Shown here: piece by piece, positions 27,011 through 29,777 of the stretch
How the letters are laid out: each line of letters begins with the position of its first letter
How positions within the stretch are numbered: the first letter of the stretch is position 1
From: Micrococcaceae bacterium
GTDB taxonomy: Bacteria; Actinomycetota; Actinomycetes; Actinomycetales; Micrococcaceae
Direction: 5' to 3'
DNA length: 64,000 bases
NCBI GenBank assembly: GCA_030452125.1
Contig: JAKDMV010000002.1
Coordinates: 1 to 64,000, forward strand
Notes under the pieces: generated by a model
Database searches by the model: none
Told to the model about the DNA's origin: nothing
What the model saw: only the letters and a program-made list of their open reading frames with translations
Position numbers and translations under genes: made by a program

Positions 27011-27688
27011 CTACTTGGAGAACTGCTGGCGGGACTCGCCACCTGCCGGCTCGAAACCGGCGGCCTTGGCGGCCTCGACGGAGTTGAACCAGAACTCCGG
27101 CTGCGTCTGGTCGTACCAGGTCGAATCCGGCACGTGGTACTTCATCGACTGGTTGCCCTTGATGACGTAGCCCGCGGGGGCTTCCTCGCCTTCAACGGCC
27201 TTGACCATGCCTTCACCCTCGGTGGCCTTGGCGGCCTTCGGGGCGGCGGCCTTGGGGGCGGCAGCCTTCTTGGCGGCCGGAGCAGCCGGTGCCTTCGTGG
27301 CGGGCTTCTCGGCGGCCGGGGCGTTGACGTCGGCCGGGAGGGCCTCCTTGGCGACCTTGACCAGTGCGCCGAACGCGTTGGCGTCGGACACGGCGAGATC
27401 GGCGAGCATCCGGCGATCAACCTCGACCTCAGCGGCCTTCAAGCCCTGGATCAGACGGTTGTAGGTCAGGCCGTTCGCGCGGGAAGCAGCGTTGATGCGC
27501 TGGATCCAGAGGCGACGGAAGTCACCCTTGCGCTTGCGGCGGTGGCCGTAGCTGTAGACGAACGAGTGGAGCAGCTGCTCCTTGGCCTTGCGGTACAGGC
27601 GCGAACGCTGACCGCGGTAGCCCTTGGCCCGTTCGAGAACGACCCGACGCTTCTTGTGGGCGTTGACTGCCCGCTTCACACGTGCCAC
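27011..27688 (-). CDS. rplT: Ribosomal protein L20 with C-terminal extra domain
   Basis: A large-subunit assembly protein. Residues 1 to ~118 are normal L20 ([43 protein letters not shown]). Residues ~121-170 form an Ala/Lys/Pro-rich linker. Residues ~172-225 are an extra compact domain ([36 protein letters not shown]) that resembles the short C-terminal module called the sunset domain on some actinobacterial proteins; this name is from memory. Total length 225 compares with about 120 for standard L20. The tail is in frame with the same codon style, so it is a real fusion and not a frameshift. Confidence 0.93.
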
Positions 27689-27792: not shown

Positions 27793-27987
27793 TTAGAGGC
27801 CCAGCATCCGCTTGATGGTCTTGGTGTCCGCCTTGGCAACGATCCGTTCGCCCTTGAGCTGGCGCTTCAGGCTGGAAGGCTTGTGCTCCAGGTAGTGACG
27901 ACGATTGGCCTGCTGGCGCATGATCTTGCCGCTACCGGTGAGCTTGAAGCGCTTCTTGGCGCCACTGTGGGTCTTGAACTTCGGCAT
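27793..27987 (-). CDS. rpmI: Ribosomal protein L35
   Basis: A 64-residue basic large-subunit protein. The sequence [20 protein letters not shown] at the N-terminus, followed by [14 protein letters not shown], is the L35 signature; length is normal. It sits between infC and rplT in the standard order. The 104-base gap to rplT holds a small hairpin that could serve control of rplT. Confidence 0.95.
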
Positions 27988-28103: not shown

Positions 28104-29129
28104 CTATTTACCCGGACGAGGTTTCGGAGCCGCGGTGGGCTTCGGGGCCGGCTTCGGAGCCGCGCTGGGCTTCGGTGCCGGTTTCGGCGCAGGCTTCGGG
28201 GCCGGCTTGGCGGCCGGCTTCGGAGCTGCTGCGGGCTTCGCTGCAGCGGCCGGCTTGGCTGCCGCTGCCGGCTTCGCCGCGGTCGACGGCTTGCTGGCCG
28301 CCGCTGGCTTGGTCGCTTCCGCAGGCTTGGCGGCTTCCGCAGGCTTGGTGGCCGGTTCGGCCTCGGGGGTCTGCGGGGCTGCGGCTGCCTTGGCTTCTGC
28401 TTCCTTGGCTGCTGCGGCGTCGACCTTGGCCTTTTCGGCGTTATCCGCCTCGACCTGGGCCAGACGCGCCTGGAACTCGTCCGGAAGGTTGTCACCCAAG
28501 GACTGGGTCATGGCCGGCTGCTCGTCCGAGGTATCGACGCGGTCTTCCTTGGTCGCCTTGGACTTGGCCTTGTCGTTTTCACGCTGTGCCTGACGGCGGG
28601 CTTCGGCCTTGGCCTCTGCCTTGTTCTTCAGCGGTCCGACGACCATGACCATGTTGCGGCCGTCCTGACGCGGGCTCGACTCGACGACGCCGACTTCGGC
28701 CACGTCTTCGGCGAACTTGTTCAGCAGGCGGATGCCCAGTTCGGGACGCTGCTGCTCACGACCACGGAACTGGATCATGGCCTTGACCTTGTCGCCAGCG
28801 CCGAGGAAGCGCAGGGCATGCCCGGTCTTCGTCTCGTAATCGTGCTTGTCGATCTTGAGGCGGAAGCGGACTTCCTTGAGGACCGTGTTGGTCTGGTTCT
28901 TGCGTGCCTCGCGTGCCTTCACCGCGGCTTCGTACTTGAATTTGCCGAAGTCCATCAGTTTGCACACGGGCGGCTTGGCCGTCGGCGCCACCTCGACCAG
29001 ATCAAGGTCGGACTCCGCGGCCAGACGCAACGCGTCCTCGATGCGGACAATGCCCACCTGTTCGCCGTTGGGTCCAACCAGCCGCACCTCTGGGACGCGG
29101 ATTCGATCGTTAATGCGTGGATCGCTGAT
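28104..29129 (-). CDS. infC: Translation initiation factor IF-3 with long Ala/Pro/Lys tail, probable AUC start
   Basis: IF-3 keeps ribosomal subunits apart and proofreads the start codon. Residues 1-170 are the normal factor ([35 protein letters not shown], then the C-terminal domain with [18 protein letters not shown]). Residues 171-341 are a tail: a charged helix to about 255, then degenerate KPA/AAKP repeats ending in PKPRPGK. I chose ATC at 29129: AGGAG lies exactly 6 bases before it, the conserved ISDPRINDR begins there, and no ATG/GTG is near. A rare AU-rich start is the known self-control device of infC (AUU in E. coli). TTG codons about 40 bases upstream are the alternatives. Confidence 0.9.
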
Positions 29130-29175
29130 GTGTCGCTCCTGCTTTTCGTAGTTCGAAGCCGCCAGCAACAAGAGA

Positions 29176-29206
29176 AGGCCTCCAGCTGCTGGGCAGATGG
29201 AGGCCT
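29176..29206 (-). terminator. Candidate attenuator terminator hairpin of infC
   Basis: A 9-bp stem (29176-29184 with 29198-29206), 13-base loop, then a mixed T-rich tract, about 45 bases before the infC start. Confidence 0.5.
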
Positions 29207-29237
29207 GGAAAATCGGTTCGGCTGCTCGCGCATGCCA

Positions 29238-29254
29238 CGGAACCCGTGGTTCCG
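29238..29254 (-). promoter_or_regulatory. infC-leader hairpin shared with rpmI-rplT gap
   Basis: A 7-bp stem with 3-base loop (29238-29244 with 29248-29254). Fourteen of 15 bases of its core recur in the rpmI-rplT gap. Confidence 0.45.
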
Positions 29255-29408
29255 TCCCGAAGTGACCCGGCAACCTGAAGCGGTTACTGCGGGTGGGAGT
29301 AGGCCTCCACTTGCATACTCGTTTCGTTGTTCCCGACGGATCCTTCGCCCGGTGGGGCGGAATCCGCTGAGTCAGCAAAACCAGTCGGTCTGTGAAAAGC
29401 TTAGCAGC

Positions 29409-29777
29409 ATGAGTACCCCTGAAACCAATCCGGACGCCACCTTCGGCGAGACCAACGAGGTTCGCGACATCGCTGAAGTAGCGGCCGTGGAAGTCATTAC
29501 CACCGCAGCCGTGCACCTGATGAGCGCGGCAGCCGTGAAGTGCGGACTCGCCGAAGGCGAAGACGCGGAAGACCTGCAGGACCTGGATGAAGCCCGCAAG
29601 CTCATCACCGCACTGGCGGGTCTGATCACGGCAGCAGCACCCGAAGTCGGCTCCCAGCATGCCGGCCCGCTACGCGACGGCCTGCGCTCCTTGCAGCTGG
29701 CCTTCCGTGAGGCCTCCAACTACCCGGATGCCCCGGGGCAGGGTCCCGGCGAGAAACTCACCGGGCCCGTGAACTAG
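29409..29777 (+). CDS. DUF1844 family protein
   Basis: A 122-residue small helical acidic protein. The core [28 protein letters not shown] and [21 protein letters not shown] is typical of actinobacterial DUF1844 proteins, which are regularly found beside infC. No catalytic residues or export signals are seen and the function is unknown. It is divergent from infC. The start ATG 29409 lacks a good Shine-Dalgarno and I could not place its promoter. Confidence 0.82.

Follow-up and report, generated by a model that had tools for sequence, protein, structure and literature searches.

A conserved sensor core in the infC leader of actinomycetes and its predicted role in transcription attenuation

Expression of the infC–rpmI–rplT operon in Bacillus is controlled by an infC leader that interacts with L20, in which ligand binding favours a terminator and which has been described as restricted to Firmicutes (PMC6097659). 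In the Bacillus rplJL L10(L12)4 leader, the ligand stabilizes an anti-antiterminator (PMC10931766). In Escherichia coli, IF3 autocontrol of infC acts translationally, at an AUU start codon, and IF3 represses noncanonical starts in Streptomyces (PMC5472188). For actinobacteria, M. tuberculosis has a long infC 5′ UTR, which exceeds the coding region 2.6–4.9-fold in abundance (PMC3207917), and Streptomyces carries Scr1601, which is filed in Rfam as an sRNA gene (RF02830) and which is reported to have been detected by RNA-seq in S. coelicolor with its expression confirmed and to lie in a UTR in S. ambofaciens (PMC8388888); SCO1600 is IF-3 (PMC6344877). The literature that we searched, mostly non-subscription papers, describes no infC attenuator in actinobacteria and states no regulatory role of Scr1601 for infC. 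Here, we analyse the infC leader of a Micrococcaceae bacterium, contained in a 64-kb stretch of DNA (the window), together with leaders taken first from related genomes of the same family and order and then from the class. The comparison points to a real, conserved transcription attenuator before infC, with a sensor core that, by sequence, recurs almost throughout the actinomycetes. Such an element would provide transcriptional feedback on infC–rpmI–rplT across the class, including Streptomyces, Rhodococcus and probably mycobacteria, and is possibly an independent answer to the problem solved in Bacillus by the L20 leader.

The operon occupies the minus strand of the window, and all features described below lie on this strand. 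Pfam identifies infC (28104–29129; IF3_N and IF3_C), rpmI (bL35; 27793–27987; Ribosomal_L35p) and rplT (27011–27688; Ribosomal_L20), the last encoding bL20 and being the candidate source of a feedback ligand. Translation of infC starts at an AUC codon at 29129, preceded by the Shine–Dalgarno sequence AGGAG (29136–29140). Upstream, an extended −10 element read from the sequence, TGCTAAGCT (29398–29406), constitutes a putative promoter; TGNTANNNT stands at the −10 position in many relatives' leaders, and we infer a transcription start near 29390–29393. The predicted transcript begins with an irregular hairpin, P1 (29317–29385 by folding), which extends from the 5′ end to a conserved AAG.

Between the putative promoter and infC lie the three 9-nt segments that an earlier note on this DNA had listed, all of them in the order given there: S1, TGGAGGCCT (29309–29301); S2, AGGCCTCCA (29206–29198); and S3, again TGGAGGCCT (29184–29176). 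As their complementarity shows, S2 can pair either with S1, forming an antiterminator, or with S3, forming a terminator together with a U-rich tail. The S2:S3 fold comprises 9 bp, a 1×1 mismatch and 4 bp (−22.5 kcal/mol) and is followed by TCTCTTGTTGCT (29164–29175), the predicted early 3′ end. The note had described this later helix as followed by a T-rich stretch; the hairpin and its tail (7 of 12 positions T) are present, but there is no strong U-run, and a simple terminator scan of the window missed the hairpin. We count this weak U-tract against an attenuator; the terminator tails of relatives reach CUUUUUU. S1–S2–S3 is the only 9-mer trio of the form X…rc(X)…X in the window. Because roughly 0.19 such trios are expected by chance per 64 kb, with both strands counted, the trio in one sequence is weak evidence, suggestive rather than compelling. 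The 9-mer TGGAGGCCT itself occurs 10 times in the window against 0.69 expected, and its additional copies outside the infC leader form no comparable trio.

The earlier note had proposed an alternation between terminator and antiterminator and had named covariation of the segments in relatives as its check. Across 73 genomes, S1 and S2 pair better within than between genomes: the mean residual is −3.4 kcal/mol (z −11.3), a value that 0 of 20,000 permutations reached. The outcome that the note had named as refuting its proposal, an absence of covariation, was thus not observed. The effect is present both inside and outside the family, with z −7.4 in the 39 genomes outside it; these permutation statistics leave shared ancestry partly in, and the z values are inflated by kinship because related genomes are not independent. 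The terminators were analysed by per-sequence folding in place of RNAalifold, which on a MAFFT alignment did not recover the hairpin, owing to misalignment. In most leaders, folding reveals a terminator-like hairpin 45–115 nt before the infC start, whose arms change yet remain complementary and which ends in a U-rich tail. Automatic calling placed terminators in 89 of 102 leaders, some of the calls being spurious, and none in the other 13; the output stage may therefore differ between lineages, acting through Rho or translation. Coevolution is also detected between the terminator loop and a downstream segment, S4 (z −8.5, against z 0.7 for a control consisting of the next 22 nt), and within P1 inside the family (z −5.7), that of P1 being weak outside it (z −1.7). 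Together, the S1:S2 coevolution, which extends to leaders outside the family, and the conserved hairpin with its U-rich tail bear out the proposed alternation, as does Streptomyces, in which the leader ends at its U-tract and corresponds to Scr1601 of Rfam. In one genome of the same family (L036), the infC leader is short and carries neither core nor terminator, a natural loss.

S1 is embedded in a conserved element, the sensor core, AAGUGGAGGCCUACUCCCACCCG…GCCGGGU (29262–29318), which lies upstream in the leader and which the earlier note had overlooked; also beyond that note were the probable transcription start near 29392, the AUC at 29129 and S4 (29169–29162). The core has the consensus AAGYGGAG…CUCCCACCYG…CGGGU, and the covariance models R1 and R2 match it in the window at 65 bits (E about 1e-13). 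It is predicted to form two abutting helices. Hairpin A (29295–29310), the candidate anti-antiterminator, holds most of S1 and is closed by G29310–C29295, with GGAG (29308–29305) pairing with CUCC (29299–29296). Its helix is kept, with at least five pairs, in 235 of 241 leaders, and in some of these compensatory changes maintain it, for example as GAAAG/CUUUC, GGAU/AUCC, GGAC/GUCC or GGAAUC/GAUUCC. Helix B (29265–29294), formed by ACCC (29294–29291) and GGGU (29268–29265), is near-invariant; its general pairing is ACCYG:CRGGU, in which the inner pair varies among CG, UG and UA. Because hairpin A draws on bases that S1:S2 also needs, the predicted pairings exclude each other.

The distribution of the core follows that of infC. 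Among related genomes, infC was located in 58 of 59, and a pattern for the core has a single match, at infC, in 34 of 39. R1, which was built from the core, finds one match each in 134 of 198 sampled genomes of the class, and every match examined is upstream of infC. R1 has no match in the other 64 class genomes; 20 of these were inspected, and all 20 have a diverged core, in which hairpin A has mostly been rebuilt with new pairs (GGAC/GUCC or GGAAUC/GAUUCC, for instance). When a species collection was scanned with a DNA pattern, at least 119 stretches were returned; the 80 matches listed are all from actinomycetes, and infC, rpmI and rplT follow the match wherever the flanking sequence sufficed. 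Sampled genomes of other classes yielded one weak match, not at infC and not counted, in a search whose insensitive prefilter loses some R1 matches, so that absence there is not proven.

In Streptomyces, the leaders match Scr1601 end to end, from the start to the U-run of the terminator, with E values down to 5e-34, and at five loci (L134, L142, L147, L190 and L208) Scr1601 lies at the infC leader with the same core, AAGUGGAGG…CUCCCACC. The Scr1601 covariance model does not match the window, nor does it reach its gathering score in 12 other actinomycete loci. By sequence, the core delineates a broad family of sensors. Its Streptomyces member was filed as an sRNA, and the attenuator would provide a function for this RNA, so far catalogued without one; neither the family across the class nor its connection with Scr1601 appears to have been reported in the mostly non-subscription literature searched. 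An Rfam search of the window and the leader, permissive thresholds included, returned nothing relevant. The leader has the genomic placement of L20_leader (RF00558), upstream of infC–rpmI–rplT, but the covariance model of that family, run with Infernal, gives no match at E ≤ 1 or E ≤ 10. The two leaders share the operon, the position and a ligand-favoured terminator (PMC6097659), in our case a predicted one; we regard them as functional analogues and do not claim homology. The rplJL L10(L12)4 leader resembles the infC leader in the anti-antiterminator logic that we propose for the latter, but belongs to another operon, has a kink-turn site and gave no match. The earlier note's statement that the leader is not a described L20- or IF3-responsive element holds to the extent that neither an L20_leader match nor a description in the literature searched was found; against it, Rfam already lists the Streptomyces form, under the heading of sRNAs, and control by IF3 at an AUC start has been described (PMC5472188).

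These data lead us to favour, as rather likely, an anti-antiterminator attenuator that gives feedback on infC–rpmI–rplT, with L20 as its likeliest ligand and IF3 autocontrol in addition. RNA polymerase would make S1 and S2 before S3, so that the antiterminator would form by default and the operon would be read. Folding from the inferred start agrees with this order: in a transcript that still lacks S3, the antiterminator is the minimum (−95.1 kcal/mol, against −84.0 kcal/mol for the closed core), whereas in one that includes S3 the minimum is the terminator form (−104.9 versus −101.8 kcal/mol). In this model, the two full-length forms are near enough in energy for ligand switching. A ligand that keeps the core closed would make S1 unavailable, since hairpin A contains S1, and leave S2 free for the terminator; S2:S3 would then form and transcription would stop near 29165. 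A bound core would in this way favour termination, so that the feedback would be negative, like that of the L20 and L10 leaders of Bacillus; we deduce both the default state and the direction in which the switch responds from the computed energies only. S4, GTTGCTGG (29162–29169), is complementary to the terminator loop (29192–29185). After read-through it would pair with this loop and keep the terminator from re-forming, and we speculate that S4 locks the read-through form; it is unable to prevent termination, because RNA polymerase reaches it only past the termination point.

Most probably, one of the operon's own products serves as the ligand. By analogy, bL20 has about an even chance of being the ligand and is preferred because L20 is the known feedback protein of infC–rpmI–rplT in Bacillus; a factor other than bL20 and IF3 seems rather unlikely, and IF3 more unlikely still. 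If a gap of one base is allowed, the best 23S match of the leader's 5′ motif is the stretch UGCUAAGUGG (25 of 102 leaders, 1.2% of shuffles), which lies at or adjoins the L20 site. This suggestive resemblance is confined to one strand, the 3′ side of the motif having no match to 23S, and we do not claim mimicry of the L20 site. Synteny is unable to separate IF3 from L20 because the genomes compared keep infC, rpmI and rplT together, with no informative unlinked case among the genomes listed. A tentative reading, which we hold to be possible though somewhat improbable, is that the core represents a new class-wide sensor family with a fold of its own (AAG and two abutting helices), unrelated to the L20 sites of Firmicutes and E. 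coli, which would bind IF3 or another translation-state signal and exert operon feedback throughout the actinomycetes.

Start codons bear on the role of IF3. AUU or AUC stands at the infC start position in the 50 loci first compared, from the family and order, and in each of the 102 core-bearing leaders; with its Shine–Dalgarno sequence, this noncanonical start has the form expected for IF3 start-codon autocontrol. IF3 autocontrol of translation through the AUC start therefore probably acts on top of the attenuator. The leaders resemble E. coli infC in this respect, but a translational mechanism at the start codon leaves the attenuator unexplained. The same attenuator could have IF3 as its ligand, which would amount to a double autocontrol, at the level of termination via the core and at that of translation via rejection of the AUC or AUU start. 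In every case examined, infC is the gene immediately downstream of the core, and the repression of noncanonical starts by IF3 in Streptomyces (PMC5472188) adds to the case made by the start codons, yet a sufficient route of autocontrol is already present, and the precedent for this operon, in Bacillus, is RNA-binding feedback by L20 (PMC6097659); we consider this version unlikely.

Three further explanations fare worse than L20-directed or IF3-directed attenuation. That the leader releases a trans-acting, Scr1601-like sRNA, with termination constitutive rather than regulated, accords with the Rfam typing of Scr1601 as an sRNA gene, but constitutive termination would have no need of an S1:S2 pairing that excludes both the terminator and hairpin A and is kept by coevolution, and the place before infC and the linkage to the operon are fixed; such a role is very improbable. 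It is harder still to sustain a leader-peptide attenuator, in which ribosomes on a short upstream ORF would choose between the hairpins, a mechanism known for other actinobacterial operons (PMC2965389): a start preceded by a Shine–Dalgarno sequence occurs in only 39 of 102 leaders, at scattered positions and with unrelated peptides, none occurs in the window, and the conserved feature is RNA structure rather than an ORF. A conserved short ORF overlapping the switch was not found in the 102 leaders or the window, which disfavours a leader peptide. Functionless chance repeats in a high-GC genome, to which the expected trio number and the abundance of the 9-mer in the window lend some colour, have a negligible probability given the conservation and class-wide occurrence, and are refuted by the S1:S2 coevolution test.

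Both candidate ligand proteins carry additions to their conserved domains in the window. The bL20 of 225 amino acids has its Pfam L20 domain at residues 3–109, beyond which come a linker rich in alanine and a tail (27011–27350), and IF3 has a long C-terminal extension, rich in alanine, proline and lysine, past IF3_C (28104–28560). A DUF1844 gene diverges from infC at 29409, and the extended −10 of infC, TGCTAAGCT, abuts the start codon of that gene (29398–29409). This layout is repeated in many relatives and suggests that infC and the divergent DUF1844 gene have a promoter region in common.
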